A stretch of DNA of 64,000 nt, from NCBI RefSeq assembly GCF_000948985.2, contig NZ_CP059733.1, positions 4,960,001-5,024,000 of the forward strand. Reading direction: 5' to 3'. Both the position numbers and the translations under genes were made by a program. Of the stretch, positions 37,685 through 55,299 are shown piece after piece (the stretch's first letter is position 1; the number at the start of each line of letters is the position of its first letter). This stretch comes from Thalassomonas viridans (lineage in GTDB: Bacteria; Pseudomonadota; Gammaproteobacteria; Enterobacterales; Alteromonadaceae). The notes under the pieces are model-generated. The model was not told where the DNA came from. It did no database searches and worked only from the letters and a program-made list of their open reading frames with translations.

Positions 37685-38992
37685 ATGAGGTTGTTAATCG
37701 CCTGCTCGGTACTTTCCTTCATTATATTCCTGATAAGTCAAAAAGTTATTGCCGTGCCACTCGATGCCGAAATAACCGATCATGCAACTGCACCAGGCAG
37801 CAACACCAACCAAAGCGAAATAACAAGCGCCAACCGGGGCGGTATACCTAAACTGAACGATGAAATTGACAAATACCAGAATGCTATTGAAGAAATCGAA
37901 TCTGTAGGAGGCATGTACAGCGAGCAAATCGCCCAGAAGCTGATCAACCTGGGCAATATCTACCAACATTACGATAAACATGACGATGCGGTTCAGGTTT
38001 TTAAACGGGCGCTGCACCTGAGCCGAATTAACGAAGGCCTGTATTCCTTAACCCAGATCCCCATTCTGGAGAAAATGATCAAGAGTTATAAAAAAAGAAA
38101 ACAGTGGACGCAAGTCAATGACAAGTATTATTACATGTACTGGCTATACGCCAGGAATTTCGACGACCAGGACATAAAGCGCCTCGATATGGAACTGCAA
38201 ATCGCCAACTGGCACCTGGAAGCATACGCCATGCAACTGCTGCCGGATCCTACCCAGGACTTAATCTATTCCTACTCTTTATTTGACCGGGCAGCCAACC
38301 TTATCTCCAGCACCTACGGAGATACAGACTTACGTTTGATCACACCATTAAACGGCCTGATGTTGACCAATTACTTTATTGCCTCCCATGTCACGAGAAA
38401 TTCGGTTGAAAAAGTATATGCCATGAATGAACAGCTTCAGGTGCAAATGAAAAAATCAGATATCGTTATCGCTGAAATGAAACGTAAGAGTTTTGCTACC
38501 GGCAAGAGAATCATCGAACGAAAGTTAACGGTTTTACATGGACAAAAACCGCTTAACCATCAGGCAATAGCCAAGGCCAGACTTAAACTGGCCGACTGGT
38601 TTCTGATGCACAACAAAAGACAAACCGCTTTGCGCCATTACCAGCAGGCCTATGACTACGCCGTCACTACAGATAAAAACAGGGAATTTCTGGATCAGCT
38701 ATTCAGCCAGCCGGTGGCCCTGCCCCACTACCCCAACCTGCAGCAAAGAACCCGGACCATTAAAAGCGATGCCGAACTTGCCGCGGATGTCAGTTATGTC
38801 CATGCCACCTTGGACGTCACTAAATATGGCAAAGCCAAAAACATTAAGATTGTCAGCTCCAATCCTCCGGATAATAGCCCTATTCGTACTAAAGCGCTGA
38901 AATCATTGAGATCAACCAAATTTCGACCGCAAATTTCCGATGGTGTAACTATTTTTACCGAGCAACTGCAGCTGCATGTCTTTCCTGAGTAA
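37685..38992 (+). CDS. Exported TPR protein with TonB-like C-terminal domain
   Basis: First gene of the accessory cluster; not a named gene. The 435-residue product has an N-terminal signal peptide or anchor (LLIACSVLSFIIFLISQKVI), a TPR region (IAQKLINLGNIYQHYDKHDD, AVQVFKRALHLSRINEG) and a second TPR unit near residue 300 (ALRHYQQAYDYAV). The last 80 residues look like a TonB C-terminal domain (ATLDVTKYGKAKNIKIVSSN, then KALKSLRSTKFRPQ). The start follows GAGG by 8 bases. Predicted periplasmic. The TonB-like end beside an ExbB-like gene (45412) suggests an energy-transducing partner, but unlike TonB no proline-rich spacer is present. Function is unknown. Confidence 0.75.
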   Translation: MRLLIACSVLSFIIFLISQKVIAVPLDAEITDHATAPGSNTNQSEITSANRGGIPKLNDEIDKYQNAIEEIESVGGMYSEQIAQKLINLGNIYQHYDKHDDAVQVFKRALHLSRINEGLYSLTQIPILEKMIKSYKKRKQWTQVNDKYYYMYWLYARNFDDQDIKRLDMELQIANWHLEAYAMQLLPDPTQDLIYSYSLFDRAANLISSTYGDTDLRLITPLNGLMLTNYFIASHVTRNSVEKVYAMNEQLQVQMKKSDIVIAEMKRKSFATGKRIIERKLTVLHGQKPLNHQAIAKARLKLADWFLMHNKRQTALRHYQQAYDYAVTTDKNREFLDQLFSQPVALPHYPNLQQRTRTIKSDAELAADVSYVHATLDVTKYGKAKNIKIVSSNPPDNSPIRTKALKSLRSTKFRPQISDGVTIFTEQLQLHVFPE

Positions 38993-39008
38993 TAACGAGG
39001 CCTGAACC

Positions 39009-40160
39009 ATGAAGAAATCACAGATTACGATAATAATAACCTCAATACTCTTATGTTTGTCCGGCTGCCAGTCAACACAGCAGAAGCAGCAAAGCCAACC
39101 GCCGACTTCATCCCCCGGCAGTTCATCTTCCAGCGCTTCATCAAGCTCCAGCTCAAGTGCTTCAAGCAGTCCCAGCTCATCAAGTTCAAAGTCGTCTGGC
39201 TCCAGTTCTTCAAACTCAAGGGCTTCGTCCAGTCCAGGTTCGGCTCAGTCCCAGCCGCAAGCTTCATTACCTACAACCAGCACCGGCAGCACTTCGGCTA
39301 ACAAGGGAGAGCAGGCAGCAACTTCCCAACAAGCGGGAACCAGCAGTGAGGAGCAGAGTTCAGCACAACAAGACGGCGATAGCGGCGAGCAGTCAGAAAG
39401 CAATGAAGACATGGCCGGCACCAGCTCAGAAAAATCCAGTGACGACATTGATTTTTCTGAAGAAGAGGTCACTGCCTCCAGTTCATCCAGTCAGTCTCAA
39501 TCAAGTGAAAGCAGTGCATCTGCCCAGTCTTCTGCCAGTGCCAGTGCCAGTGCCAGTGCCAGTGCCAGTCAGGCAAGCCAATCAGCATCCAGTGCTCATG
39601 CAAGCAATAATGCCCCTTCCCAACAGTCTTCCGGAACTGCCGAGGGAGCCAGTTCAAACCAACAGCCATGGGAGGGTACAGCCACTCCCGGCGGCATGAG
39701 CAATACCCAAACCCGGGGAGAACAAGTAGCGGAGCTGGATGAACGCCTTAACCGCTCAATGAGTGACTACGACGGCATGATCTTAAGCGAACGGGAATAT
39801 ATCCAAAACAAAGGCGCCGAACAGGGCAGCGAACAGGCGGTCGCCAGTGCAGGTCCTTTATATGATGATGTTTTAAACGGTGAGGAAGCAAGCACAACAG
39901 CCCAGACATCAGGTGCTACACAACCGTCCTTTCCCTCAAGCTCTGGCGGTATGCCTGAATTGCCTTCTTCCCAAAGAGAGGGAGACTATTCGCACAATCA
40001 AACCGTATATACCCCACCTGCCGATATTCCCAGCGGTAACGACGATGACGTTGTCGCCCGGCAAATCAGGGAAGCAGCACTAAAAGAGGCCGATCCCAAA
40101 TTACGGGAAAAGCTCTGGGATGAATACCGCAAATACAAAAGCCAGACCAAAGGGTATTAG
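39009..40160 (+). CDS. Serine-rich low-complexity lipoprotein
   Basis: Not recognised as any named gene. The 383-residue product has a lipoprotein signal (ITSILLCLSGC-type; Cys20), then about 160 residues made mostly of Ser, Ala and Gln, a Gly/Thr/Gln region, and a charged C-terminal helix (EADPKLREKLWDEYRKYKSQ). The low-complexity part is probably a long flexible tether between the outer membrane and the charged C-terminal module. Six perfect copies of GCCAGT (39534-39569) encode an Ala-Ser run and could vary in number without shifting frame. It is 16 bases after the TPR/TonB-like gene and 2 before the next lipoprotein gene. Confidence 0.75.
   Translation: MKKSQITIIITSILLCLSGCQSTQQKQQSQPPTSSPGSSSSSASSSSSSSASSSPSSSSSKSSGSSSSNSRASSSPGSAQSQPQASLPTTSTGSTSANKGEQAATSQQAGTSSEEQSSAQQDGDSGEQSESNEDMAGTSSEKSSDDIDFSEEEVTASSSSSQSQSSESSASAQSSASASASASASASQASQSASSAHASNNAPSQQSSGTAEGASSNQQPWEGTATPGGMSNTQTRGEQVAELDERLNRSMSDYDGMILSEREYIQNKGAEQGSEQAVASAGPLYDDVLNGEEASTTAQTSGATQPSFPSSSGGMPELPSSQREGDYSHNQTVYTPPADIPSGNDDDVVARQIREAALKEADPKLREKLWDEYRKYKSQTKGY
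39534..39569 (+). repeat. Hexanucleotide repeat (GCCAGT)6 inside a coding region
   Basis: Six perfect tandem GCCAGT units in the serine-rich lipoprotein gene, in frame with codons for Ala-Ser. Gain or loss of units keeps the reading frame and would only change tether length. Confidence 0.95.
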
Positions 40161-40162
40161 CC

Positions 40163-41347
40163 ATGAACCGATTCATGTCCAACACAGGTGTTTTCTTGCT
40201 ACTGCTGCCAATCTTGTCACTTGCCGGGTGTAAAACCACGGAAATCAAAACCACGGAACAAATCCCCGTGGTTCATGAAACCGCCGACATTCCGGAAGAT
40301 GAATTACTCGATATAGGGATCCGGATTTTTGATCCCGGCCTGGAGAACCTGGAACAGCTGGATGAAGATACCCTGGTTTTTCCCGAAATCCGCATTGCCG
40401 AGGCAAGCTTTTTCCCTTACCTGTTGATGGAAACCCTGCAATCAAGCGGCGCCTGGGGGGCCGTCCGGGTTGTTCCCGTGGGACACGACTCGGTGGATGT
40501 CCTGGTCAAAGGAGATATTATCCAGTCTGACGGCGAGCAACTTATCGTCATGGTTGATGTTATAGACTCCCGGGGACAACGCTGGTTTAACAAGGAATAT
40601 GCCCAAAAAGCCAGCCGTTACTCTTACGACAAGAAAACCCAGTTAAGGTACGAACCCTTCCAAAATATTTATAACCGTATCAGTAATGACCTGAACGAAT
40701 ACCGCAAATCCCTGACTTCACAACAACTGGTGGAATTAAGGCTGGTCTCGGAATTAAAGTTTGCCAAAGACTTCTCGCCGCAAACTTTTTCCGAGCATTT
40801 ATCACAAGACGAATCCGGCTATTACCTGATTAACCGCCTGCCCGCCGAAAACGATCCTATGCTGGCGCGCATCAAACAGATCCGCGAGCGGGATTACCTG
40901 TTTGTCGATACCTTGCAGGAATACTACAGCAGCTATGCCAAAGAAATGAAGGCCCCCTACAAGCAATGGCGCAGTGAAAGCTACAACGAAGTCATCGCCA
41001 TGCGCAAAATGAAAGAAAAAGCCCTGAACCAGAAAATGATAGGTGCCGCAGCCATTATCGCCGGCATCTATGGCGCAGGCAGTTCCACAGGTTCAGCCAG
41101 GGCGGCAAGCAGCGTTGCCGTAGCCGGGGGCGCCTATGTACTTAAAGACGGCTTTGAGCGCGATGCCGATGCGCAGATTCATATCGAGGCATTGCAGGAG
41201 CTGGGAGATTCATTACAGGCAAGCATAGAATCTCAGGTGATAGAACTTGAAGACAGAACCGTGACCTTATCCGGTACCGTCGACAACCAATACCAGCAAT
41301 GGAAAAAAATATTACAAGAGATTTATCAATCTGAAACCGGAAATTAA
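40163..41347 (+). CDS. Lipoprotein of unknown function
   Basis: The 394-residue product has a lipoprotein signal (FLLLLPILSLAGCKTT, Cys23). Residues about 60-150 have a pattern of alternating strands (DVLVKGDIIQSDGEQLIVMV, DVIDSRGQRWFNKEY) reminiscent of outer-membrane accessory lipoproteins of transporters, but this is only a resemblance. A mixed helical part follows, with a Gly/Ala-rich hydrophobic stretch (GAAAIIAGIYGAGS) near residue 300 that could insert in a membrane. It closes the first three-gene block; a 118-base gap follows, within which TTGGAC-N16-TACTAA (about 41392-41419) could be a weak promoter for the next genes. Confidence 0.72.
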   Translation: MNRFMSNTGVFLLLLPILSLAGCKTTEIKTTEQIPVVHETADIPEDELLDIGIRIFDPGLENLEQLDEDTLVFPEIRIAEASFFPYLLMETLQSSGAWGAVRVVPVGHDSVDVLVKGDIIQSDGEQLIVMVDVIDSRGQRWFNKEYAQKASRYSYDKKTQLRYEPFQNIYNRISNDLNEYRKSLTSQQLVELRLVSELKFAKDFSPQTFSEHLSQDESGYYLINRLPAENDPMLARIKQIRERDYLFVDTLQEYYSSYAKEMKAPYKQWRSESYNEVIAMRKMKEKALNQKMIGAAAIIAGIYGAGSSTGSARAASSVAVAGGAYVLKDGFERDADAQIHIEALQELGDSLQASIESQVIELEDRTVTLSGTVDNQYQQWKKILQEIYQSETGN

Positions 41348-41465
41348 CCTCGCCTAAAAGTAAAAATAGCCGTGGGCAGGGGCGATTTTTGGACTATAAA
41401 TAAAAATAGATACTAATAATATTCAAGCATAACGTACTGAGGGTGCACACTTTAATGGGGTAACC

Positions 41466-42989
41466 ATGACATCAGCAGAGCAAGAAAAAAAGAACGATAA
41501 GCAAGCAAAACAAACCGTTTCTTTAAACTTTAACCGCACAGGTCTATTGTCTAAGAAAAATACCTACAACTGGTTTGCAAGCCACTATGTTATTATTTTA
41601 TTACTGCTGACCCTGTTGGCGGTATTGTATTTCGTCGTAGTACAACTGCCCGGCTCAGTCTCTGAGCCTGAAGTAGAGCTGGATGCCAAAAGCCTGATGG
41701 CGGCAGAGGCACAAAAACCCATAGATGAATCCCCCTGGCAGGAGGCCCAGCTGGCCAAGCACAGACGCCAGGCCCAGGAAATCCTCTCCGACGTACTGGC
41801 CAGGCAAAAAAACCTCGAAGAAAAAAAAGTCACCTTATGGGCTGAAAATGCTTTCTCCCAAGCCATTAAAAACGCCGAAGACGGCGATCTTTTCTACCGC
41901 AGCCAGGAATTTGAGCAGGCCATGGAAAGCTATCGGCAAACCTTGGAGCAATTGCAAAGCATAGAAGCCAGTATTCCCGAATCCTTTTCAAGCTACCTTG
42001 CCAGCGGTCAGCAGGCATTAACGGCAAATAATGCCGCCCAGGCCAAACAGCAGTTACAGATAGCCCTGCATCTTATGCCCGACAACAAAAGCGCACAGCA
42101 GGCCTTTGACCGCGCCCTGGTACTGGACCAGGTACTGAGCCTGGTTAAACAAAGCAAAGTCCTGATGGATGAACAGCAGCTGGAATCATCCAGGGATGTA
42201 CTGAATCAGGCCGCCGCACTCGACAGCCAGTCTCCTATGGTGGCGGCAGAATTAACCCGGGTCGAAACGGCCATTAAGGAAAGAGATTACTCGCTGGCCA
42301 TGTCAAGCGGGTATCAAAACCTCAAAAACAAAAACTATCCCTCTGCCATCAATGATTTTACCGCCGCCGGCAAAATTTTACCTTCTGCCACCGATCCGCA
42401 AAAAGCCATACAGCAGGCGAAAAGCCAGGCCTTAAAAGCCGCTATCACAGAAAAAATACGGCAGGCCCAACGCCTGGAACAGGAAGAGAACTGGCAACTT
42501 GCCCAACAAAGCTATCAGCAGGCCTTAACTCTGGACCAAACCCTGATCTCGGCCAAGGTGGGCCAGTTACGCAGCCAGGCCCGGGCAGAGCTGGACTCAG
42601 ATCTTAAGCTGATTCTGGACAAACCTACCCGGTTGGCCAACCACAAGGTTTTTGCCCAGGCCGAAAAGGTTTATAGCGATGCCTTAAAAATCCAGGCACC
42701 GGGAAAAAAGCTGCAACAACAAATTATTGACGTTAAAAAGCTGCTGGCACAAGTCAAACAGCCGGTGCCATTAAGAATCCAGTCTGACAACCACACTAAA
42801 ATCACCCTGTACCGGGTCGGTGAGTTAGGCAATTTTCTCGCTAAAGATCTCTCTTTAACCCCCGGGGAATATACCATCACGGGCTCCCGTGACGGTTACC
42901 GGGATGTCCGCCAGGAATTTACCTTAATGCCGGGACGCCCGTTAAAAACCATCACCATAGCCTGCAGTGAAAAAGTGAGCAACGGATGA
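41466..42989 (+). CDS. Membrane-anchored TPR protein with PEGA-like C-terminus
   Basis: The 507-residue product has a cytoplasmic N-terminus of about 38 residues, one membrane segment (about 39-60, YVIILLLLTLLAVLYFVVVQ), and a large periplasmic part of tetratricopeptide-like helices (for example YRSQEFEQAMESYRQTLEQL, QLAQQSYQQALTLDQTLIS). The last 70 residues (RIQSDNHTKITLYRVGEL, LSLTPGEYTITGSRDGYRDV) look like a PEGA domain. Its stop overlaps the next ATG by 4 bases, so it is made with the PEGA-FGE protein. It is likely a periplasmic scaffold of the proposed machine. No enzyme function is suggested. Confidence 0.8.
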   Translation: MTSAEQEKKNDKQAKQTVSLNFNRTGLLSKKNTYNWFASHYVIILLLLTLLAVLYFVVVQLPGSVSEPEVELDAKSLMAAEAQKPIDESPWQEAQLAKHRRQAQEILSDVLARQKNLEEKKVTLWAENAFSQAIKNAEDGDLFYRSQEFEQAMESYRQTLEQLQSIEASIPESFSSYLASGQQALTANNAAQAKQQLQIALHLMPDNKSAQQAFDRALVLDQVLSLVKQSKVLMDEQQLESSRDVLNQAAALDSQSPMVAAELTRVETAIKERDYSLAMSSGYQNLKNKNYPSAINDFTAAGKILPSATDPQKAIQQAKSQALKAAITEKIRQAQRLEQEENWQLAQQSYQQALTLDQTLISAKVGQLRSQARAELDSDLKLILDKPTRLANHKVFAQAEKVYSDALKIQAPGKKLQQQIIDVKKLLAQVKQPVPLRIQSDNHTKITLYRVGELGNFLAKDLSLTPGEYTITGSRDGYRDVRQEFTLMPGRPLKTITIACSEKVSNG

Positions 42990-45079
42990 ACAAATTACTT
43001 CAAAGCAGCATAAAGGACAGTAATAATGCCGATCAGCCCGGCATTATTATCCCCGCCCCTTTTACCCCTACGGCGCACAGTAAAGTTAAAGCGGCAAAAA
43101 AACAGTACCGGCCTTATGTTTATGTGACCGCAAGCCTGCTTTTATTTGCCTGCCTGATTTTAGCCTATCTCTTTACCGCCAAGTCTGTGGTCCTGGTCAC
43201 TTTCCCCCAGGCAAATAAGCTGGAAATTTCCGGCGGACTGCATTTCGAGCTGGCGGATCACTTTCTTATGTTGCCGGGGGAATACCAGCTAAGTGCAAAC
43301 TTAGAAGGTCATTTTCCCCTGAAGCAAGCCTTTACCGTCAGTGAGCTGCAAAACCAGCAACTGAACTTTGAATTTACCCGCCTGCCGGGCAAACTGACCC
43401 TGGAGCTGGAGCCGCAAACGCCGGTATCTGTGCTTATCGATAACAAGACTGTCGAGCACACGGGAAATACCATCAACAACATCCCCGCCGGTAAACGCCT
43501 GCTCACCCTGACCAGTGAACGTTTTTTACCTTTTACCAAAGAAATACAGATTGAAGGCAAAGAAATAACACAGACATTGCCGGTAAAGCTCACCCCCGCC
43601 TGGGCCAATATCAGCTTTAATTCACTGCCTGAAGGCGCCGAAGTTTATCAACAGGACATCTTACTGGGAACAACCCCTTTCTCAGCCGAAGTGCTCCGGG
43701 GCGAACACCAGCTCCGTTATCAAAAAGCCGGTTACAAACCCAGCCAAAGGGAGCTTGAAGTCCGGGCCGGTATCGACATGAGGCTAGATCCCGTTACCCT
43801 GTTTAAGCTCACGGGTAAATTAGCCGTCACGTCAACACCTGCCGGGGTCAGCGTCACTTACGGCGATCAATACCTGGGCACCACTCCTTTAACGGCGGCA
43901 GTCAAGCCAGATACAAACCAGTCATTGCTGCTGTTTAAAGACGGCTACCAGGAGTACTCCACCTCGTTAACCGTCCCTTCCGGGGAAACGGTCAATAAGA
44001 GCTTCAAACTGCAGCCCGTCGTCGGTGAAATCAGTTTCCGGGTCACTCCCGCCGATGCCCTGCTTTATATAGACGAACGCCTGATGGGACGGGCAAACCA
44101 GAAGATGACCCTGCCGGCAAAACAGCAAAGCATCCGGATAGTCAAAGAAGGTTTTGTCGATTATAAAACCCAAATATTACCCAACCCATCCATGGAACAG
44201 GTGTTTTCGGTACAGCTAAAAACCTTTCGTCAGGACAAGTTTGACCGCCTGGAGCCCATGATTTCAAGCACCACAGGCAGCAAACTCAAGCTGTTTAAGC
44301 CCAATGATATTTTTGTTATGGGCGCCTCCCGCCGTGAACAGGGCAGAAGGGCCAATGAGGTCAGGAGAGAAATTAACCTCACCCGGGCTTTTTATCTTGG
44401 TTTGACGGAAGTTACCAATAAAGAATTCCGGCTATTTAAAAAAGATCATTCCTCCGGCCATGTCAAAGGCAACTCCCTTAACGGCAGTAAACAGCCTGTG
44501 GTCAGGATCACCTGGCTGGAGGCGGTCACTTTTTGCAACTGGTTATCAGAAAAAGAGCAGCTGCAGCAGGTTTATCAAATCGAAGATAACAAGCTCACCG
44601 GCATCAACTTAGAGGCCAACGGCTACCGCCTGCCAACAGAAGCCGAATGGGTTTGGGCCGCCCGCTATCAGGACGGTAAAATGCTGAAATATGCCTGGGG
44701 GGAGTCCTTGCCGCCTCAGGAAGGTTCGGCAAATATTGCCGATATCGCCGGAGCCTCCATCCTGGGGGAAATCCAGCCTACCTATAATGATAATTTTATC
44801 ACCACCGCCCCCGTCGCCTCTTTCACCGCCAATAAAAAAGGCCTGTATGATCTGCCGGGCAATGTTGCCGAATGGATCCATGATTATTACCAGATCCAGA
44901 CCGGCCTGTCCCTGAAAACAGAAAAAAACCCCTCAGGCCCGGAGTCCGGCGATTACCACGTTATACGCGGCGCCAGCTGGGCCCACGGCACCCGGACCGA
45001 GCTGCGCTTATCTTTCCGCGATTACGGCAATGATAAACGCGACGATCTCGGATTTCGAATTGCGCGCAATGCCCTGTAA
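42986..45079 (+). CDS. Membrane protein with PEGA repeats and FGE/SUMF1-like domain
   Basis: The 697-residue product has a short cytoplasmic start, a membrane segment (about 44-64, YVYVTASLLLFACLILAYLF), about five PEGA-type repeats (about 70-410; for example LPGEYQLSANLEGHFP, LLGTTPFSAEVLRGEHQLRY, YLGTTPLTAAVKPD), and a formylglycine-generating-enzyme fold (441-697) with hallmarks GYRLPTEAEW (546-555), DLPGNVAEW and RGASWAHGTR. The cysteines that bind copper in true FGE, near the RGGSW motif, are absent, so sulfatase activation is unlikely; the domain probably acts as a binding or structural module, or has another activity as in EgtB-like relatives. It is translationally coupled to the preceding TPR gene. 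Confidence 0.85.
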   Translation: MNKLLQSSIKDSNNADQPGIIIPAPFTPTAHSKVKAAKKQYRPYVYVTASLLLFACLILAYLFTAKSVVLVTFPQANKLEISGGLHFELADHFLMLPGEYQLSANLEGHFPLKQAFTVSELQNQQLNFEFTRLPGKLTLELEPQTPVSVLIDNKTVEHTGNTINNIPAGKRLLTLTSERFLPFTKEIQIEGKEITQTLPVKLTPAWANISFNSLPEGAEVYQQDILLGTTPFSAEVLRGEHQLRYQKAGYKPSQRELEVRAGIDMRLDPVTLFKLTGKLAVTSTPAGVSVTYGDQYLGTTPLTAAVKPDTNQSLLLFKDGYQEYSTSLTVPSGETVNKSFKLQPVVGEISFRVTPADALLYIDERLMGRANQKMTLPAKQQSIRIVKEGFVDYKTQILPNPSMEQVFSVQLKTFRQDKFDRLEPMISSTTGSKLKLFKPNDIFVMGASRREQGRRANEVRREINLTRAFYLGLTEVTNKEFRLFKKDHSSGHVKGNSLNGSKQPVVRITWLEAVTFCNWLSEKEQLQQVYQIEDNKLTGINLEANGYRLPTEAEWVWAARYQDGKMLKYAWGESLPPQEGSANIADIAGASILGEIQPTYNDNFITTAPVASFTANKKGLYDLPGNVAEWIHDYYQIQTGLSLKTEKNPSGPESGDYHVIRGASWAHGTRTELRLSFRDYGNDKRDDLGFRIARNAL

Positions 45080-45096
45080 GGAAAGCGGAGATATTT

Positions 45097-45390
45097 ATGG
45101 CTAAGTATCACTACCTGACCCCAATATTAATCTTGACGGTTTCGGTACCGGCACAAGCATTAACTAATCCCCCTGCCAGCCATTTCGCCGAGCAGGCCCC
45201 GGCCAAAACTCCCCGGGAGCCTCCCCTTAGCGGCGAAGCCGCCGATAAAGCAAAGGCTAAACAAGAAGACATGAAAAAAGACAAGCAAGAACAGCAAACG
45301 GTTAAAACAGCAGAAAAACAACAAGATACTTTTACCCCGACGGAAGAGATTTCTGAGGACTTGGCAGTCTCTTTCCCGGTTGATATTTAA
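45097..45390 (+). CDS. Small exported lysine/glutamate-rich protein
   Basis: The 97-residue product has a signal peptide (LTPILILTVSVPAQALT), then a Pro-rich bit and a highly charged Lys/Glu/Gln helix (KAKAKQEDMKKDKQEQQTVK). It follows the PEGA-FGE gene by 17 bases with GGAAAGCGGAG ahead of its start, and precedes the ExbB-like gene by 21 bases. No family is recognised; in this setting it may be a short periplasmic linker or inhibitor. Confidence 0.7.
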   Translation: MAKYHYLTPILILTVSVPAQALTNPPASHFAEQAPAKTPREPPLSGEAADKAKAKQEDMKKDKQEQQTVKTAEKQQDTFTPTEEISEDLAVSFPVDI

Positions 45391-45411
45391 TAACCTCCAG
45401 GATGAAAGCAG

Positions 45412-46224
45412 ATGAAACGTAATCTAGGCTCAGAATTCATATACCAGCTTTTTGCCTTGCTGCTCTCGGTGATTATCGTACACGCCGTCTATGTCACCCT
45501 GGTCCGCCCGGAAGCAGAAGCCATAATTAAACAGCAGGAAGCCCAGCAGCAGGCGGGCGCGGCCGTCACCAACCAGAGATCCCTATATGTAGTCTTAAAA
45601 GACTATGAACAGGAAACCTGTCTGATCTTAATGTTATGGGCCATGATGATCATGGGTTATAAGGCCAGGCTGGCCCTGCAGGAAAAACACATGCTGGCGC
45701 AGGCGATACTGGACGTGCAGGAAGGAGCCAGCATCTTACCCGAAGACGCCCGGGCATTATGCCGGCCGCTGCAGGGACTGCCGCCGGAAAAACAGGGCAT
45801 GCTGGCCCCGCGCACCTTGCTGGTCGCCCTGAAACGCTTTTCCGCCACCGCCAATGTCGCCGCCGTAGCCACGGCCATCAAAGATATTTGCGAGGCAGAA
45901 GCCGACCGGCTCGACAGCGAGTTAGCCATGGTGCGCTATATTTCCTGGGCCATCCCTTCTATAGGGTTTATCGGTACGGTAAGGGGCATAGGTGAAGCCC
46001 TGGGTCAGGCCCACCAGGCGGTGGAAGGCAATATTATCGGGGTTACCAACAGCTTGGGGGTGGCATTTAATTCAACCTTTATCGCCCTGGTGATCAGCAT
46101 CTTTATCATGTTCTTTACCCACCAATTGCAGCTGATGCAGGAGCGTTTGGTACAAAACACTCAGGATTACTGTGACGGTAACCTGCTCAACCACCTGAAA
46201 ACCGATGTCAATAAGGTGGATTAA
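45412..46224 (+). CDS. MotA/TolQ/ExbB-family proton channel protein
   Basis: Members form a pentameric inner-membrane channel around two copies of a one-pass partner and convert ion flow into rotation or pulling. The 270-residue product has four predicted membrane segments (about 9-31, 69-87, 176-196, 215-237) and the family signature of the last two: IPSIGFIGTVRGIGEALGQA and TNSLGVAFNSTFIALVISIF. Between segments 2 and 3 is a cytoplasmic loop of about 90 residues. It lacks the four-helix MotA insert pattern and is nearest in look to ExbB/TolQ with an extra N-terminal helix. Its stop codon abuts the next ATG. Likely partners are the two ExbD-like VWA proteins encoded 1.3 kb downstream. Confidence 0.85.
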   Translation: MKRNLGSEFIYQLFALLLSVIIVHAVYVTLVRPEAEAIIKQQEAQQQAGAAVTNQRSLYVVLKDYEQETCLILMLWAMMIMGYKARLALQEKHMLAQAILDVQEGASILPEDARALCRPLQGLPPEKQGMLAPRTLLVALKRFSATANVAAVATAIKDICEAEADRLDSELAMVRYISWAIPSIGFIGTVRGIGEALGQAHQAVEGNIIGVTNSLGVAFNSTFIALVISIFIMFFTHQLQLMQERLVQNTQDYCDGNLLNHLKTDVNKVD

Positions 46225-47526
46225 ATGGCCTTGACCCTGATAGAAATTAATGACCACCAGCTGACCATCCGCCAGGGCGAAAAATCATGGAGCCAAAGCG
46301 GTTATGCCCTGATAGATAAAGAGCGGCTGCTTTTCGGCCAGGATGCCTTTAACCGCGGCAAACTCGATCCCGGTAACTTTTACTGCCGTTACTGGCAACA
46401 GTTGGGTTATGAAGAAATCACCACGGACAATCCCCAAATCAGGCATTTTGCCGATCTGGCTTATTTACAGCTCAAAGCCCTGTTAGCGCAATGCGACCAT
46501 ACCGGCGATACCATTTTTATGGTGCCGGCCAACTACAGCCAGCAGCAATTATCTCTGCTGTTGGGCATAGCGGGCTCATGCCGGTTAAAGGTTATTGCCG
46601 TCATCAACGAAGCGGTTATCAAACTCGCCCATCATCAGCAGGCGGGTAAGCTGGCATTATTGGATATAGGTTTGCATCACTGCAGCCTGAGTGAATTACA
46701 CGCAGCTCAGGATCTGTCCCTGATAACACCCCACGCGATCCCCCATAAGGGGCTTCACGATCTCTATAAACACCTGGCCGCCTGGCTCAACGAAAAGTTT
46801 ATCCTGGAGTGCCGCTATGATATTTTTGCCACCGCCCAGGCCGAGCAGGCAATCTATAATTACCTGCCAGAAATCATTCCCTGCCTGCGACCCAGCTATC
46901 AGCTGAAAGTCAGCGATAAAACCCTTAAAGTTTTTGCCGGGGAAATCAAAGAGCAAATTAAGACTTTTTTTGCCCCTGTCCTGGCCTCGGCCGGTGAATA
47001 TGCCAACATCTATATCACGCCGAGATTAAAAGCCGTACTGGCAACAGAGCCGGCTCTGGAGGCAATGGCCCTGGCGGATGAAAGCACCCTTCATCAAAAT
47101 ATCCACCGCCACCTTAATGAGCTGACCGGCAATAAGCAAATAAGCCTGATCACCCGCCTGCCCCTCAACCTTAAGGCCAGGCCGTATAATGCAGATATCT
47201 CTTTGCAAAAGCAAAGCGAGGCCACTCACCTGGCGTATAAGGGACACGCCTATCCGTTGACGGAGAAAACGCTTTTTCTTTATGGCGGCAGTGACAACCC
47301 CCTGTCGCTCAATTCCGGGGAAAATTACGCGGCTAAATTAACCCGGACAGACAGGAGCTGGCAACTTGACCTCGCTTGCGGACAGCCCCGGGAAAACCCG
47401 CAACCTGTCTTGATTAACAACCACCCCGCCCGGCACCAACAAAGGCTTTACCCCGGAGACAAAATCAAGATCGGCCGGGAAGAGGCAAGTTTCCTATTGC
47501 TTAAAGTCGAAAAGGAACTGCATTAG
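46225..47526 (+). CDS. Hsp70/actin-like protein with C-terminal FHA-like domain
   Basis: No named gene. The 433-residue product has no signal or membrane segment, so it is cytoplasmic. Residues about 97-160 resemble the Hsp70 nucleotide-binding domain: FMVPANYSQQQLSLLLGIAG, VIAVINEAVIKL, then ALLDIGLHHCSLSEL, in the position of DLGGGTFDVSIL. The glycine-rich phosphate loop and the N-terminal DLGTT motif are missing or degenerate, so ATP binding is uncertain. The last 80 residues look FHA-like (LFLYGGSDNPLSLNSGE, VLINNHPARHQQRLYPGDKI, KIGREEASFLLL). Its ATG directly follows the channel gene stop, suggesting a cytoplasmic partner or assembly platform for that channel. Confidence 0.65.
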   Translation: MALTLIEINDHQLTIRQGEKSWSQSGYALIDKERLLFGQDAFNRGKLDPGNFYCRYWQQLGYEEITTDNPQIRHFADLAYLQLKALLAQCDHTGDTIFMVPANYSQQQLSLLLGIAGSCRLKVIAVINEAVIKLAHHQQAGKLALLDIGLHHCSLSELHAAQDLSLITPHAIPHKGLHDLYKHLAAWLNEKFILECRYDIFATAQAEQAIYNYLPEIIPCLRPSYQLKVSDKTLKVFAGEIKEQIKTFFAPVLASAGEYANIYITPRLKAVLATEPALEAMALADESTLHQNIHRHLNELTGNKQISLITRLPLNLKARPYNADISLQKQSEATHLAYKGHAYPLTEKTLFLYGGSDNPLSLNSGENYAAKLTRTDRSWQLDLACGQPRENPQPVLINNHPARHQQRLYPGDKIKIGREEASFLLLKVEKELH

Positions 47527-47528
47527 TT

Positions 47529-48605
47529 ATGGCCGGCAAAAGAAAGTTTTCCACCTTCAGCCTGTCCTTCCTCGACATCATGTCTTGCGGCTTCGGCGCC
47601 GTGGTGCTGGTGTTTTTGATCATCAAGCACGATGTCAACACCCAGGTGGAAGAGCAAAACCTCGAACTGCAGGCGGAAGTCAACCTTTTGGATGAAGAAG
47701 TCACCGAGGGACAGGCCCAGCTGGTGAAGATTAAAAATACCCTGTCCCTACTGGATCAGGAGCTGGTGGAAGCCAGCGGCCTTGCCCGGCGCATCAACGA
47801 CGAAATCGATGCCATCGCCAATAAAATCGCCTTGCTGGACCAAGAAAGTGACGACCAGCAAATCATCAAGATGAAAGAGCAGCTCAGAACCCTGATGCTG
47901 GAAAAGAAAAAACTCGAAGACGAACAGGCCCAGGGCAATGACGCCAGGCGCTTTATCGGCCAGGGAGAGCGGCAATATCTTACCGGCTTGAAACTTGGAG
48001 GCGCCAGGACCCTGATCTTGCTCGATGCTTCCGCCAGCATGCTCGACAGTCAGATAGTCAACATCATCCGGCGCAAAAACATGTCTGACGACAGCAAAAA
48101 ACAATCGAAAAAGTGGCAAAGGGCGATACGGGCGGTTGAATGGCTGGTGGCAAAATTTCCCCTGAGCAGCCAATTCCAGCTTTATGTTTTTAATACCCAG
48201 ACCCGCGCCTTGTTGGCAGACACGGCACATGAATGGCTGGCTATCGCCGATGAAGAAACGTTAAACAGCAGCATCAACGCCCTGCATGAACTGGTGCCGA
48301 CCGGAGGCACCAGCCTTGAAAACGCCTTTCGCGCCATCAGCTTCCTCGATCCCCTGCCCGACAATATCGTATTGATTACCGACGGCTTACCCACCCAGGG
48401 ACTCAAGGCCCCCAAAGGGCACACCATCTCGGGTCAGGAACGGGAAGAGCTGTTTAACCAGGCGGTAGAAACCTTACCCGAAGGCATCCCGGTCAATGTA
48501 CTGTTATGGCCGATGGAGGGAGATCCCATGGCGGCATCCGCTTTCTGGAAGCTGGCGCAACATTCACTCGGCTCGTTTATGAGTCCGTCAAAAGACTGGC
48601 CCTAG
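47529..48605 (+). CDS. ExbD-like membrane-anchored VWA protein 1
   Basis: The 358-residue product starts with a short basic tail, then one membrane helix (about 14-33) with the motif SFLDIMSCGFGAVVLVFLII, where Asp16 is placed as the essential Asp in ExbD/TolR/MotB helices (compare the pattern FIDVMLVLLIIFM). A periplasmic coiled coil (about 36-135) follows, then a VWA domain with an intact metal-ion site (DASAS at 166-170, Thr in PTGGTSL, Asp in LITDGLPT). A VWA domain here replaces the peptidoglycan-binding or TonB-binding domain of known partners. It is 2 bases after the FHA gene and 8 before its paralog. Confidence 0.82.
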   Translation: MAGKRKFSTFSLSFLDIMSCGFGAVVLVFLIIKHDVNTQVEEQNLELQAEVNLLDEEVTEGQAQLVKIKNTLSLLDQELVEASGLARRINDEIDAIANKIALLDQESDDQQIIKMKEQLRTLMLEKKKLEDEQAQGNDARRFIGQGERQYLTGLKLGGARTLILLDASASMLDSQIVNIIRRKNMSDDSKKQSKKWQRAIRAVEWLVAKFPLSSQFQLYVFNTQTRALLADTAHEWLAIADEETLNSSINALHELVPTGGTSLENAFRAISFLDPLPDNIVLITDGLPTQGLKAPKGHTISGQEREELFNQAVETLPEGIPVNVLLWPMEGDPMAASAFWKLAQHSLGSFMSPSKDWP

Positions 48606-48613
48606 GAGTTGAT

Positions 48614-49615
48614 ATGAGCAGAAAACGCCGCGGCTCAGAAGAATTTTCCATCGCCTTCCTGGACGTGATTTGCTGCGGTTTCGGCGCCATTATTTTACTG
48701 TTGATGATCACCAAAACCATGGCGCCTATCGTGTTGGAAGAGTCCAGCGTCAATCTCGACGCCCAGTTAAAAGAGCTGCAGGAAACCCTGTTTACCATAC
48801 GCGGGGAAACCACCATCTACAACCGCGACCTGACCGCCAAACACGAACAGATCGACGCCGAGAAAAAACGCCTGGCGATTCTCCGTACCCGGCTGGCCAC
48901 CATAGAAGCCCAGCATGCCCAGGTTTCCCGGGCCGCCTCCTTCAGCAGCCAGGAAAAAGGCAAGCTGGCGCTGGCGCTGCAAAGCCTTTCCGAAGAAATG
49001 GAGCGCCTGCTCGGACAAAACTACAAAAGTAAAAATGATTTAATTGGCGGGATCCCCGTCGATAGCGAATACTTAATTTTTATCATAGACACCTCGGGCA
49101 GCATGTATAACTACGCCTGGGAAAGGATGCAGGAAGAGATCATCGCCACTTTAAATATTTATCCCGAAGTCAAAGGCATACAGATTATGAACGATATGGG
49201 CAACTATATGTTTAACAATTATCGCCGCAAATGGATCCCGGACACCAAAGCCAGGCGCAGGGCCATTATCAAACGGTTAAGAAGCTGGAATCCTTTCAGC
49301 AACAGTAGCCCGGTAGAGGGGATACAAAAAGCCATCCGCACCTTTTTTGCCCAGGATAAAAAAATCAGCCTCTATGTCATGGGGGACGAATTTTCAGGAC
49401 GCTCGATTGAAAACGTTTTAACAACGATAGAGCGTATCAACAAAGTTAACGCCAATAACGAACGCCTGGTGCGTATCCATGCCGTAGGCTTTCCGGTGCA
49501 GTTTATGCGCCCGAAATACCTGCAAAAAACCGGTATACGCTTCGCTACGCTGATGAGAGAGCTCAGCTACAGAAACGGCGGCACCTTTGTTGGCCTTAAT
49601 GACTTCAGGCCTTAG
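48614..49615 (+). CDS. ExbD-like membrane-anchored VWA protein 2
   Basis: Paralog of the preceding gene with the same layout: basic N-terminus, membrane helix with AFLDVICCGFGAIILLLMIT (Asp17), coiled coil (about 45-135), VWA domain with DTSGS at 159-163 and a MIDAS-like GDEF further on. ATG 48614 is used because AGGAGTTGAT precedes it; an upstream ATG at 48506 would overlap the previous gene by 100 bases. The 333-residue product ends soon after the VWA fold. Having two different one-pass partners recalls the two-copy core of ExbBD and MotAB, here possibly a heterodimer. Confidence 0.82.
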   Translation: MSRKRRGSEEFSIAFLDVICCGFGAIILLLMITKTMAPIVLEESSVNLDAQLKELQETLFTIRGETTIYNRDLTAKHEQIDAEKKRLAILRTRLATIEAQHAQVSRAASFSSQEKGKLALALQSLSEEMERLLGQNYKSKNDLIGGIPVDSEYLIFIIDTSGSMYNYAWERMQEEIIATLNIYPEVKGIQIMNDMGNYMFNNYRRKWIPDTKARRRAIIKRLRSWNPFSNSSPVEGIQKAIRTFFAQDKKISLYVMGDEFSGRSIENVLTTIERINKVNANNERLVRIHAVGFPVQFMRPKYLQKTGIRFATLMRELSYRNGGTFVGLNDFRP

Positions 49616-49630
49616 TGGACGGATAAACTT

Positions 49631-50257
49631 ATGGTTATTAAACAGCACATCAAGCACATATTAAAACTGCCCCTGGCAATTTTATTACTCGCCAGCACCA
49701 GCTGTACCAGCACCCTGCAAGTTGAGGGGGAGTTTCCCCGCCCGGTGATCCACCAGCTGCCGCTGCAGGTTGCCGTCCATTACCAGGATGATTTTCGCCG
49801 CTACCGTTATGTGGAAAAAAGTGAAAAACGCAGCAAATGGGAAATCGAAATAGGCAGCGCCCAGGTAGCCTTATTCGATACCGTATTGCCGGCCATGTTT
49901 GAAAATGTGGTCCAGGTATCGGGCATCAGCCCGCAGGAGAATACCGATATCGACTTGTTCTTTGAACCCTATGTGGAAGAGTTCCAATACAATATGCCCA
50001 GGGAAACCAAAGTGAACATGTTTGAGGTATGGATCAAATACAACATGAAAGTTTACGACGGCCAGGGGGCTTTAATCGCCGACTGGATATTAACCGCCTA
50101 CGGCAAAACTCCCACCGCCTTTATGAAATCCGAAGAAAACGCCCTGAACGAGGCGATGATCATTGCCCTGAGGGATGTCGGCGCCGGTTTGTCGCTTAAA
50201 TTCAGCCATATTCCGGAAATCAACAGCTGGCTCAACAAGCAGGGCCAGCTGCAATAA
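49631..50257 (+). CDS. Putative lipoprotein of unknown function
   Basis: The 208-residue product has an N-terminal hydrophobic signal (LPLAILLLASTSCTS) with a Cys in an imperfect lipobox (STSC rather than LAGC), so lipidation is likely but not sure. The rest is a soluble alpha/beta protein with DLFFEPYVEEFQYN and MFEVWIKYNMKVYDGQG. No family is recognised; it lies 15 bases after the second VWA gene, so it belongs to the same transcript. Probably anchored in the outer membrane facing the periplasm. Confidence 0.7.
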   Translation: MVIKQHIKHILKLPLAILLLASTSCTSTLQVEGEFPRPVIHQLPLQVAVHYQDDFRRYRYVEKSEKRSKWEIEIGSAQVALFDTVLPAMFENVVQVSGISPQENTDIDLFFEPYVEEFQYNMPRETKVNMFEVWIKYNMKVYDGQGALIADWILTAYGKTPTAFMKSEENALNEAMIIALRDVGAGLSLKFSHIPEINSWLNKQGQLQ

Positions 50258-50313
50258 TAATAAGTAATTTTATTCATCTGGGGGTCTAACTTAGGTAACA
50301 AAGGTGAAGTGAA

Positions 50314-50994
50314 ATGAAAAACGAACATCAACTAACAAAAGGTTTATTTCTGCTGTTAACCCTGGCGTTAAGCGCCTGTACCTCGGTCACCATAGATCAG
50401 GTAAAACATGTGCCGAGCGAGCTGAAAGCCGGTGAGTCCATAGTGGTCATCGGCAGACGCAGCGGCACCGATTATGAAACCGAGCCTGAACTGATTTCCT
50501 GCATAGGCAAAACCCTGCTCAAGGGCGACAATCCCATGAATGTCATCCCGGAGCAGGAATTTGTCAACCGCCTTTACCCCTGGTTTGAAGCCCGCACTGC
50601 GCCGGTTCATGTCTGGGATTTACAAAGATTGCTGTCCTTTGATGAAATCGCGAAAATCATAGACGAATACAATGTCCACTATATTGTCTGGGTCGACGGC
50701 GTTACCGAAAAAACCCGGGGCGGCGGCAGCATCAGCTGCGGTCTTTCACCCGCGGGAGTCAGCTGCTTCGGCTTTGGTACCTGGGACGAAAAAGCCGAAT
50801 ACGAGGCCTCCGTCTGGGATTACCGCACCAAGAAGCTGGTGGGCAAGGTCAGCAGCATTGCCGACGGCACCTCTTATATGCCGGCCATCGTCATTCCGAT
50901 CCCTTTACTGGCACAGGTACAAAGCCAGGCCTGCAGCGCCATGGCCAGCCAGTTGCAGAATTTTTTCAGCGGCTCACCAGACCAGGCGAACTAA
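50314..50994 (+). CDS. Lipoprotein of unknown function
   Basis: The 226-residue product has a lipoprotein signal (FLLLTLALSACTSV, Cys22). It contains four Cys beyond the signal (ELISCIGKTL, SCGLSPAGVSCFGFG, QSQACSAMA), unusual for this set and possibly disulphide-linked in the periplasm. Residues about 105-130 (IDEYNVHYIVWVDGVTEKT) form a likely strand-turn-strand. No family is recognised. It lies 56 bases after the previous gene and 66 before the protease gene. Confidence 0.7.
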   Translation: MKNEHQLTKGLFLLLTLALSACTSVTIDQVKHVPSELKAGESIVVIGRRSGTDYETEPELISCIGKTLLKGDNPMNVIPEQEFVNRLYPWFEARTAPVHVWDLQRLLSFDEIAKIIDEYNVHYIVWVDGVTEKTRGGGSISCGLSPAGVSCFGFGTWDEKAEYEASVWDYRTKKLVGKVSSIADGTSYMPAIVIPIPLLAQVQSQACSAMASQLQNFFSGSPDQAN

Positions 50995-51060
50995 CAGTAA
51001 AATGACCCTAATGCACCTTAACATGCTCATAACCCCAGCTAATAAGAACAGGAGTTTACT

Positions 51061-52515
51061 ATGAACACCCGAATCTTATCCATTCCACTGCTGCTACTGG
51101 CCCTGGCCTCCTGTTCCATTAATCCGGCCACAGGTACGCCGGACCTGGTATTGATGTCTGAAGAAGCTGAAATCGCCATGGGCAAGGAAATGCATGAAAA
51201 ACTGCTCAAATCCGTGCCCGTCTACCAGGACGAAGAGCTGGCTGCCTATGTTGACCGCATCGGCCAGAAGGTGGCAAAAAACAGCCACCGGCCGGATATC
51301 AAATATCACTTTACCGTCATAGACGCCCCCGACATCAATGCCTTTGCCCTGCCCGGCGGCTATATCTATATCAACCGCGGCCTGCTTGCCTACCTGGACT
51401 CGGAAGCCCAGCTGGCGGCGGTACTGGCCCATGAAGTCGGCCATGTCACCGCCAGGCATGTGGTACGCCAGGACACCGCCCGTAAAGGCGCCGGCATTTT
51501 GTCTATTTTTTCGGTATTTACCACGGGCAGCACAGTGATCGGCGATGTCACCAACCTCTGGAGTACCGCGGCCGTTAAAGGCTACGGCCGGGAGATGGAG
51601 CTGGAAGCGGACGGGTTTGGCGCCGAATACCTGTTTAACAGCGGCTACGATCCCCTGGCCATGGTGGAAACTATCGGGGTATTAAAAGACCAGGAAAAAT
51701 TCTCCCGCTACCGGGCCAAAGAAGAAGGAAAAAAAACCAGGAGCTATCATGGCGTGTTCTCCACCCATCCCCGCAACGATATCCGCCTGAAAGAAGTGAT
51801 CGCCAAAGCCGGGGAATTCCCCGCCAACCAAAGCAGCACAGCCAATAAAAGCGAATACCGCAAACATACCGAAGGCCTGGTTTACGGCGTCAATTATGAC
51901 GCCAAACTCCAGGCAGAGCCGAAAGAGCCCGGCCGCTATACCCATGCCAAACTGGGGTTTTCGCTGGTGTTCCCGGAAAAATGGCAGATAGAAAATACCC
52001 GCAAAGCCATTGTCAGCCAGCCGGACGATAAATCCGCAGAAATAAAACTGACGGTTGCCCTGACCAATAAAAGCATCCCTCCCGCCGACTATCTGCGCGG
52101 CATGACCAAAACCCAAATGCTGCAACGTTCGGAAGATTTTGCCCAAAACGGCCTCATCGGTCACACCGGCATCATTGTCGACGAGCAGGGTGATTATAAA
52201 CAGCGTGTCGCCGTCCTCTATCAGGGCCGCCGCGCCTATATGCTGACCGGCACAGTAATAAACCCGCAGGCCGATGTTGATTATGATGAAATGTTTTTAA
52301 AGAGCATCCACAGCTTTAAACCGCAAAAAAGCAGCGCCCGCAAACAAAAATCGAAAACCCTGCATTATGTCAAAGCCAACGAGAACACCAATATAGAGCA
52401 GCTGGCCAAGCAACTGAAAATAGGCGCCTATGCGCCACAGCAGCTCAGGCTGATCAACGGCCTCTACCCCAGGGGAGAGCCTGAGCCCGGCAACTGGATC
52501 AAGATCATCCAGTAA
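51061..52515 (+). CDS. M48-family zinc metalloprotease lipoprotein
   Basis: The 484-residue product has a lipoprotein signal (LLLLALASCSI, Cys18), an M48 peptidase domain with HEVGH (about 124-128, AVLAHEVGHVTARHVVRQ) and the third zinc ligand in MELEADGFGAEYL (Glu near 182), and a C-terminal extension with a LysM-like sequence (RLINGLYPRGEPEPGNWIKI). It resembles BepA/LoiP-type outer-membrane quality-control proteases but has extra middle and C-terminal parts. AGGAG precedes the start. It closes the accessory run; its stop is 21 bases from the convergent kinase gene, with no terminator seen between. Confidence 0.85.
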   Translation: MNTRILSIPLLLLALASCSINPATGTPDLVLMSEEAEIAMGKEMHEKLLKSVPVYQDEELAAYVDRIGQKVAKNSHRPDIKYHFTVIDAPDINAFALPGGYIYINRGLLAYLDSEAQLAAVLAHEVGHVTARHVVRQDTARKGAGILSIFSVFTTGSTVIGDVTNLWSTAAVKGYGREMELEADGFGAEYLFNSGYDPLAMVETIGVLKDQEKFSRYRAKEEGKKTRSYHGVFSTHPRNDIRLKEVIAKAGEFPANQSSTANKSEYRKHTEGLVYGVNYDAKLQAEPKEPGRYTHAKLGFSLVFPEKWQIENTRKAIVSQPDDKSAEIKLTVALTNKSIPPADYLRGMTKTQMLQRSEDFAQNGLIGHTGIIVDEQGDYKQRVAVLYQGRRAYMLTGTVINPQADVDYDEMFLKSIHSFKPQKSSARKQKSKTLHYVKANENTNIEQLAKQLKIGAYAPQQLRLINGLYPRGEPEPGNWIKIIQ

Positions 52516-52536: not shown

Positions 52537-53937
52537 CTATATTCCCTGGGGCAAAGCCACAGATACCGCCAGCCCGCCTCCCGGCGGGCTGCTTAAGCTG
52601 ATTTGCCCCTGGTGGGCCTCGGTGATCTCCCGGCAAATACTCAAGCCTATGCCGCTGCCGTCCGCTTTAGTGGAATAATAAGGCAAAAAGGCCTGCTGCA
52701 TGACCTGGGGCTTCATACCCGGGCCGAAGTCCCGGATCACCAGGCAAATCCCCTGCCCCTGTAAGCTCAGTTCCACCTGGCTCGGGATCTCCCCTGCGGC
52801 TTCGCGGGCATTTTTCAGCAGATTTATCACCAGCTGTTCCAGCTGGCTGATATCGCCGTTAATAAACAACTGCTTATGCCGGCATTTTAAGGTAAAAGGA
52901 TACAGGGATTGTAACTGCTCCAGCATAGCAACAAGATCAAACTCCTGTTTTTGCGGCGAAGACAAACGCGCCAGCTGGCTATAATTTTGGATAAATTCCG
53001 ACAGCTTGTTTATCCGCCCTGAAATAGTCGTAAACACCTGGTTTAACCTGGGTTCATGTATCCTCTCAGCCAACACCTTGCCGCTGTGGCACATGGAACT
53101 GATAGGGGCGATGGAATTATTCAGCTCGTGGTTGATCACCCGGATCACTTTTTTCCAGGTTTTCACTTCCTGGCGGTTTAACACCCGGGTCATAGGTTTA
53201 AGTAAAAAAAGCTGATGGCGGCTGCCGTGCAGTTTCAGCTGATGCCGGGATAAGTGCCAGCTTTGCTCCATACCTGAACTTTCCGGGGCATTTTCATCCT
53301 CTTTTAGCTGGATTATGGCGCTACTCTGCCCGGCCTGTGCCTGGTAGGCCTTGTCTGCTAAAACTTCTCCTTGAACACCTATATCCTGCCCGTCAGGGTT
53401 ACCAACTGTACTTTCTCCGACATAAGCCAGCAATTCCGGCTTATGCTCTTTCATCAGCACTGTCCATTCCTGTCCCAGCAGAGAAGTCCGGTTAACACCA
53501 CAGGTTTCCAGAAACAACCGGGCAGCATGATTGGCAAAAATAATCTTGTTCCTGTGGTTCACCAGCACAGTCACCACATCGGAGGCATTGACCACTTTAT
53601 CCAGCAGCAACTCCCGCTGATACAAGGCTTGTTTTTCCGCCCGTAGTTTATCCGACACCTGATTAAAAAGCCGGATCACTCCCAGATGCTGTTGCTGTTT
53701 TTCGAAAGGTTTCTCCGCCAGCGAAATAGCAAAATCCCCGTCCTGCAAATTGCGCAACCCATCCGCCAGGCTCTGCAACACCTGGGCATGTCTTTGTTGG
53801 CTTTGCCGCAGCAACACCAGAGCCAGGCCCACCAATAAAAGGCAGATCAGGGCAAACAAACCGGGAGCGCCGGGTAAAATAAGAATAAAGGCTAAAATAA
53901 ACAGTGCATTGAGCAGGGCTAGTTTGAACGTTAACAT
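52537..53937 (-). CDS. NtrB/NtrY-type sensor histidine kinase
   Basis: The 466-residue product has two N-terminal membrane segments (about 5-21 and 26-43), a HAMP/PAS-like region, the HisKA box with H270 (VIRVINHELNNSIAPISSMC) and ATPase boxes LVINLLKNAREAAGE, IRDFGPGMKP and DGSGIGLSICREI. The periplasmic part is only a few residues, so it probably senses the membrane or a transporter state. It is the last gene of the exporter operon, 20 bases after its regulator, and should phosphorylate it. Confidence 0.93.
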   Translation of the reverse strand: MLTFKLALLNALFILAFILILPGAPGLFALICLLLVGLALVLLRQSQQRHAQVLQSLADGLRNLQDGDFAISLAEKPFEKQQQHLGVIRLFNQVSDKLRAEKQALYQRELLLDKVVNASDVVTVLVNHRNKIIFANHAARLFLETCGVNRTSLLGQEWTVLMKEHKPELLAYVGESTVGNPDGQDIGVQGEVLADKAYQAQAGQSSAIIQLKEDENAPESSGMEQSWHLSRHQLKLHGSRHQLFLLKPMTRVLNRQEVKTWKKVIRVINHELNNSIAPISSMCHSGKVLAERIHEPRLNQVFTTISGRINKLSEFIQNYSQLARLSSPQKQEFDLVAMLEQLQSLYPFTLKCRHKQLFINGDISQLEQLVINLLKNAREAAGEIPSQVELSLQGQGICLVIRDFGPGMKPQVMQQAFLPYYSTKADGSGIGLSICREITEAHQGQISLSSPPGGGLAVSVALPQGI

Positions 53938-53957
53938 AACGGCTTGAAACTCCCTGT

Positions 53958-55271: not shown

Positions 55272-55299
55272 CTTTATTCTTTTCTCTTTAATCTAGGGA

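Follow-up and report, generated by a model that had tools for sequence, protein, structure and literature searches.

To our knowledge, few ion-driven motors of the cell envelope are known: the flagellar stator, Ton, Tol-Pal, the type IX secretion system (T9SS)/gliding motor and Zorya. A further candidate appeared in Mol Biol Evol in 2025, in a study reporting that proteins with a membrane helix and a von Willebrand factor A (vWA) domain, mostly in heterologous pairs, adjoin tolQ-like genes without a tolR. The pairs were modelled inside the channel with AF3, an ion-carrying role was argued for the membrane Asp of the vWA proteins, and the function of the vWA/tolQ pairs is called unknown there (PMC12204202). 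We describe a gene cluster of Thalassomonas viridans that contains such a pair together with its channel. It lies at 37685..52515 of a 64-kb window (the whole stretch of DNA analysed, in which positions are numbered below unless another contig or locus is named), within a 7.95 Mb genome in two contigs, and comprises 13 co-directional genes, g1 to g13, all on the + strand. The gene list and the tight spacing given by an initial annotation of this DNA were confirmed.

Going by its sequence features, the TPH-vWA/TolQ family of the 2025 study corresponds to the motor core found here: a TolQ-like gene, two heterologous vWA genes, the lack of tolR or exbD and an Asp in the vWA helix are common to both (PMC12204202). 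The initial annotation had called the machine undescribed, which does not hold for the channel and the vWA pair, since a description of these and a model of their motor complex are already in print. The machine encoded by the cluster is real and widespread and, around this recently noticed motor, largely undescribed; it involves no new principle unless the ideas on its peptide and its heterodimer hold. That all of it forms one trans-envelope machine, with an ion-driven ExbB/TolQ/MotA-type motor as its power source, is the reading that we favour and consider rather probable.

Probable motor core and gene unit

The channel protein g7 (45412..46224) matches MotA_ExbB in Pfam (PF01618, 3.8e-13). 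Throughout a channel alignment of 16 rows, GTVRGIG, the Thr of FN(S/A)T, T189 and T222 are invariant, and the last two are presumably pore-lining, as in ExbB/TolQ; threonines along the channel are a feature of the TPH-vWA/TolQ family too. Both vWA proteins, g9 (VWA1, 47529..48605) and g10 (VWA2, 48614..49615), match VWA in Pfam and carry a membrane helix, with Asp16 and Asp17, respectively. The membrane motif FLD is present in 75 of 76 VWA1 proteins (the miss, in L106, is a broken open reading frame, ORF) and in all 72 VWA2 proteins; we take its aspartate to resemble the ion-carrying Asp of ExbD, TolR and MotB, and the description of both proteins as ExbD-like, made in the initial annotation, is upheld on this point. 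The metal-ion-dependent adhesion site (MIDAS), DxSxS, is intact in both window proteins and kept at 95% or more in both families. Neither g9 nor g10 matches the ExbD/TolR domain (PF02472) at E 0.1. A classic ExbD/TolR encoded elsewhere had been named as the alternative partner of the channel; the source genome holds five ExbD genes, none of them at the window cluster or at the second copy described below. Relatives of VWA2 number at least 6036 at 1e-20 among the 8000 scored matches listed, and its sequence matches to solved structures cover a coiled-coil stretch only. VWA1 of Mariprofundaceae has an apparent CTG start in the five loci checked (L155, L156, L157, L158 and L162): read from ATG, GTG or TTG, the membrane motif is cut off or lost, and read from CTG it is present.

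Scanning the g7 alignment against one genome per species gave at least 595 matching stretches, many of which were not inspected. The top 80 of these by g7 similarity were kept as the named loci; their labels place them in Gammaproteobacteria or a subgroup of it, apart from one that says no more than 'Proteobacteria'. These loci also supplied part of the sequences for the family profiles, a family was counted when its profile matched anywhere in a locus, and related species among the loci are not independent. Across the 53 loci longer than 20 kb, g1-g7 and g9-g12 (11 of 13 families) occur in 53/53, g8 in 51 (the exceptions being L057 and L104) and the M48 gene g13 in 38, while the commonest flanking family is found in 10. 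Gene order is nearly constant, except that g1 lies behind the cluster on the opposite strand in L091 and L099, and that g11 and g12 stand divergently in front of it in L103 and L112. Given these counts and the unconserved flanks, g1-g12 constitute the unit and g13 is optional. The cluster is thus a conserved, sharply bounded unit, and the co-conservation of the gene set proposed as a check in the initial annotation was observed, with the M48 protease reduced to an optional neighbour.

Among 229 gammaproteobacterial genomes, 45 have a g7 relative at 0.001, and 16, the source genome included, have a strong one (1e-45 or better, a cut of our own choice). Ten neighbourhoods of 16-20 kb around strong g7 matches (L039-L048) contain the cluster core in nine cases and the channel only in L043. 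Some of these loci belong to a short form of eight genes, in the order g2-g3-g4-g5-g6-g7-g9-g10, in which g1, g8 and g11-g13 were undetected; L047 and L048 are gammaproteobacterial examples. A survey of 398 Pseudomonadota genomes gave 16 g7 matches, 13 of them in Mariprofundaceae (Zetaproteobacteria), and the eight-gene core was present in all six of these 13 loci that were fetched. In a further class of 337 genomes, probably Alphaproteobacteria, 14 match g7 at 1e-15; seven of these are strong (<1e-80), and the eight-gene core is found in 7/7 of the strong loci. The gene set is therefore fixed in at least two classes of Pseudomonadota and probably in a third.

A second copy, of the short form and without g1, g8 and g11-g13, lies in the source genome itself (C1:566640-574920, corresponding to L039:4144-12416), and its proteins are nearest to other short forms, not to those of the window. 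For each of seven core families, the best match falls within the same form for 16/16 short-form and 62/62 long-form proteins; since long and short forms separate in this way, although both coexist in the source genome, their parts travel together. The remaining seven g7 matches of the further class are of a distant third kind. Such a distant type, with an ExbB-like channel near a vWA protein, was seen in L050, L051, L052, L182 and L183. The vWA proteins of L050 and L051 have the membrane motif SALDLFASA; by Pfam, trypsin-FHA and PP2C phosphatase proteins are encoded nearby in both of these loci, and a kinase-PEGA protein in L050. PP2C and FHA proteins were recognised by eye in L052. This third type is perhaps a phosphorylation-controlled relative. 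None of its five channels is preceded by the tail described in the following section.

The microprotein g6 and its C-terminal tail

Directly upstream of the channel gene lies g6 (45097..45390), which encodes an exported microprotein whose last codons (45373..45390) read FPVDI and a stop. The tail was counted over distinct channels, those sharing the last 150 residues being taken once. For 111 of 115 distinct strong channels, an ORF whose last residues are xPxDI stops at the start of the channel gene or shortly upstream of it, and 85 of the 111 tails are FPVDI proper. Two more tails, in L111 and L045, were found by hand, which brings the count to 113/115; in L045 the channel has moved and g6 still follows g5. 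The tail is missing in L043 and L136, both orphan channels without other cluster genes in the available sequence. Among 23 weaker channels it was found once, in L153, a truncated Mariprofundaceae copy.

The tails are written in 79 distinct nucleotide sequences, in which the codons for P, V, D and I vary freely and all three stops are used. Because synonymous codons and stops vary in this manner, the constraint lies on the peptide, and a nucleotide-level cause such as a ribosome-binding site or a gene overlap was rejected. The ORF itself has 38 to 93 codons in 16 short-form loci, and being short it may be missed by gene finders. In all 16 short-form g6 proteins, a loose signal-peptidase pattern allows for a mature product 15 to 19 residues long; the pattern is no trained prediction and matches at several places in most peptides.

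PxDI as a general sorting tag was likewise rejected, as within a genome it is almost confined, as an ORF end, to the motor loci. The source genome has six sites with the tail pattern: two are the g6 genes, one ends an ORF of 29 codons and three end no ORF of at least 25 codons. In seven of eight other carrier genomes the pattern falls at the motor locus; one of the seven shows a further site, with TGG in place of the stop codon. The eighth genome is without a pattern match, its tail being FPTDI. The g6 members scanned correspond to no family in Pfam or NCBIfam, and in the literature the string FPVDI came up only under unrelated titles. This nearly invariant tail, on which the initial annotation is silent, may be the most distinctive part of the cluster.

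Further proteins, proposed machine and rival explanations

Six proteins of the cluster, g2, g3, g6, g8, g11 and g12, have no Pfam match above cut-off. The inner-membrane-anchored g5 (42986..45079) has four PEGA stretches and a domain of the formylglycine-generating enzyme (FGE)-sulfatase family in Pfam, with an internal hydrophobic segment and, by eye, no N-terminal lipobox. Aligned to human FGE, the positions of the copper-binding cysteine pair are occupied by Ala and a gap, and no Cys is conserved there in 76 sequences; with the cysteines missing, a role as an active FGE or sulfatase maturation enzyme was rejected. PorK is reported to be a comparable case, an FGE fold without the FGE cysteines that serves as a hub and from which the T9SS builds a ring (PMC12421860). 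Upstream of g5 stands g4 (41466..42989), an inner-membrane-anchored TPR protein (TPR_2, 1e-6; membrane segment by eye).

Two lipoproteins open the short form. In g2 (39009..40160; lipobox by eye) a low-complexity leash leads to a C-terminal tail of about 35 residues that is conserved in 48 aligned sequences. The other, g3 (40163..41347), combines a long helix with a domain of the fold common to FlgT, PelC, TolB and CsgG (VIA), and was aligned from 45 of 68 eligible sequences and the window. At 35599-36768, upstream of the cluster, is a gene for FlgT, the protein that g3 matches best in VIA; because other loci do not keep these flanks, this neighbourhood looks incidental, and a tie to the upstream flagellar genes was rejected.

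The remaining proteins are specific to the long form or optional. The cytoplasmic g8 (46225..47526; the window aligned with 44 of 72 eligible sequences and with 11 of 97 relatives from the database, L098 being omitted for its length) has an Hsp70-type nucleotide-binding domain and no Hsp70 substrate-binding domain; its C-terminal part aligns to forkhead-associated (FHA) proteins. The initial annotation called it an Hsp70-like/FHA protein; the window's own FHA domain is degenerate. The exported TPR protein g1 (37685..38992; TPR_12, 8.1e-10; 14 of 56 eligible sequences and the window aligned) has a TonB_C-like end, TonB_C being found in 9 of 15 members. The lipoproteins g11 (49631..50257) and g12 (50314..50994; 14 of 66 eligible sequences and the window aligned) match neither Pfam nor NCBIfam. 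Two further alignments (A6 and A7) contain 17 others each besides the window, and A8 has 16 rows. The optional g13 (51061..52515; PF01435, 1.3e-35) is a BepA-like M48 lipoprotein protease, whose match to the NCBIfam BepA model (2.5e-38) is far under the cut-off of that model. Just downstream, at 52537-56514, convergent genes for a histidine kinase, a sigma-54 response regulator and a MacB/FtsX-type permease lie outside the conserved unit.

From these parts we propose the following machine. Five copies of g7 would surround the membrane helices of one g9 and one g10, an arrangement suggested by their sequences and modelled by others in the 2025 study (PMC12204202). Ions carried by the membrane aspartates would turn the vWA heads in the periplasm, and these heads may grip a partner through their MIDAS, for which the C-terminal PxDI tail of g6 is a candidate ligand and the C-terminal tail of g2 an alternative. 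Anchored in the inner membrane, g4 and g5 would build a scaffold or a ring in the periplasm; its FGE domain, by analogy with the PorK ring of the T9SS, may act as a structural unit and not as an enzyme. The work would be received by g3, probably an outer-membrane ring, and by g2 on its flexible leash; the long form would add the Hsp70-like/FHA protein as a likely regulator, the TPR/TonB_C protein and two lipoproteins. The output would be mechanical work on the outer membrane, with envelope integrity, export or surface movement as candidates. Bolder, and in our view doubtful, is the idea that Tol-Pal and the T9SS motor have an equal in a widespread class of trans-envelope machines powered by ions. 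Such a class would have an obligate vWA heterodimer as rotor. A dedicated exported peptide, which in the short form would be about 15-19 residues long after maturation, would be essential: with its free C-terminal PxDI it would dock at the metal sites of the vWA heads and pass rotation to a PEGA/FGE ring and an outer-membrane ring of TolB/CsgG-like lipoproteins.

Several points weigh against the proposed machine. Docking of the g6 tail in the vWA MIDAS is a guess. A sequence search of solved structures with g7 gave no ExbB/TolQ at 0.001. The VIA matches of g3 cover one domain, Foldseek found no match for it at 0.001, the best being 4.8e-3, and in its model the pLDDT is below 50 over residues 295-331. 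PorK matches g5 no better (7e-15) than an ordinary FGE does (5e-15), so a g5 ring is an analogy only. Presence is patchy, with 16/229 gammaproteobacterial genomes, 7/337 in the further class and 0/48 in another class, where the lack of any g7 relative says nothing on its own. Finally, L043 and L136 (the latter an IMG/VR contig) carry close g7 relatives as orphans.

The same parts would also serve a narrower function, a housekeeping tether like Tol-Pal, in which the motor moves outer-membrane lipoproteins for the soundness of the envelope, with no cargo or movement. We regard this as rather unlikely: the patchy presence and the occurrence of two systems in one genome speak against it, and Pfam shows no TolA, TolR or Pal among the cluster proteins. 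A little less likely again, to us, is an apparatus for secretion or surface movement that would parallel the T9SS/gliding motor and in which the FGE-fold protein would form a ring or track. The combination of a cysteine-less FGE domain with a motor is in its favour, as are the use of the same fold as a hub by PorK (PMC12421860) and the match of the GldK model to g5 (NCBIfam, 3.3e-30), though this is far under the cut-off of the model. However, no relatives of GldL, GldM, GldN or Sov were found in the cluster with Pfam and NCBIfam, g5 is not a lipoprotein, and PxDI, as an ORF end at motor loci only, is no multi-protein cargo tag.

Anti-phage defence, with the same kind of motor acting as a sensor as in Zorya, is improbable. 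PADLOC, applied to ten of the 13 proteins (g2, g6 and g13 were outside the scan), gave only weak matches of g7 to ZorA2 (8.8e-4) and of g9, over its coiled-coil part, to LmuB (0.0012), with no other Zorya part; the long, fixed operon of envelope proteins is conserved in content, no nuclease or other cytoplasmic effector was recognised by Pfam, and a Zorya-type system was rejected. We give slightly less credence still to the view that the vWA proteins are passengers and that the channel pairs with an ExbD-type rod encoded elsewhere. The five ExbD genes of the genome would allow it, but none of them lies at either copy, the vWA pair with its membrane Asp is present in all 53 full loci, and channel and vWA proteins co-segregate by form.

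Comparison with described systems

The motor core has been known since 2025, and most of the other parts seem undescribed. In its main text, the study of the TPH-vWA/TolQ family does not mention PEGA, FGE or sulfatase, although its figures or supplement may show neighbours, and its section 8 is silent, for this family, on a tail peptide, an Hsp70/FHA protein and a set of lipoproteins (PMC12204202). No description of the rest of the cluster, that is the PEGA/FGE protein, the FlgT/PelC/TolB/CsgG-like lipoprotein, the Hsp70/FHA protein and g6, was found in open PubMed Central, which is weak evidence of absence from print.

Tol-Pal resembles the cluster in its TolQ-family channel, in the TolB-like fold of g3 and, for the long form, in the TonB_C/TPR protein; it differs in that no TolR, TolA or Pal was found here, and vWA heads take the place of the TolR periplasmic domain. 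Zorya (ZorAB) shares a channel of the MotA/ExbB family, and PADLOC found no further Zorya part among ten of the 13 proteins. With the T9SS proteins GldKLMN/PorKN the cluster has in common an ion-driven motor, which is a predicted one here, a cysteine-less FGE-fold protein and lipoproteins (PMC12421860; PMC12635249). However, GldK is an outer-membrane lipoprotein, whereas PEGA repeats and a helix in the inner membrane mark g5, and the present rods are vWA proteins. Nor were relatives of GldL, GldM or GldN found among the 13 proteins with NCBIfam, which presumably holds models of all three.

The g6 tail offers a cheap and specific handle for testing the proposed machine. If that machine is real, it would set beside the known envelope motors one with two different rods, gripping its partner via metal-dependent vWA heads instead of wall anchors, in which the FGE fold is used structurally outside the T9SS and a microprotein is part of the motor.

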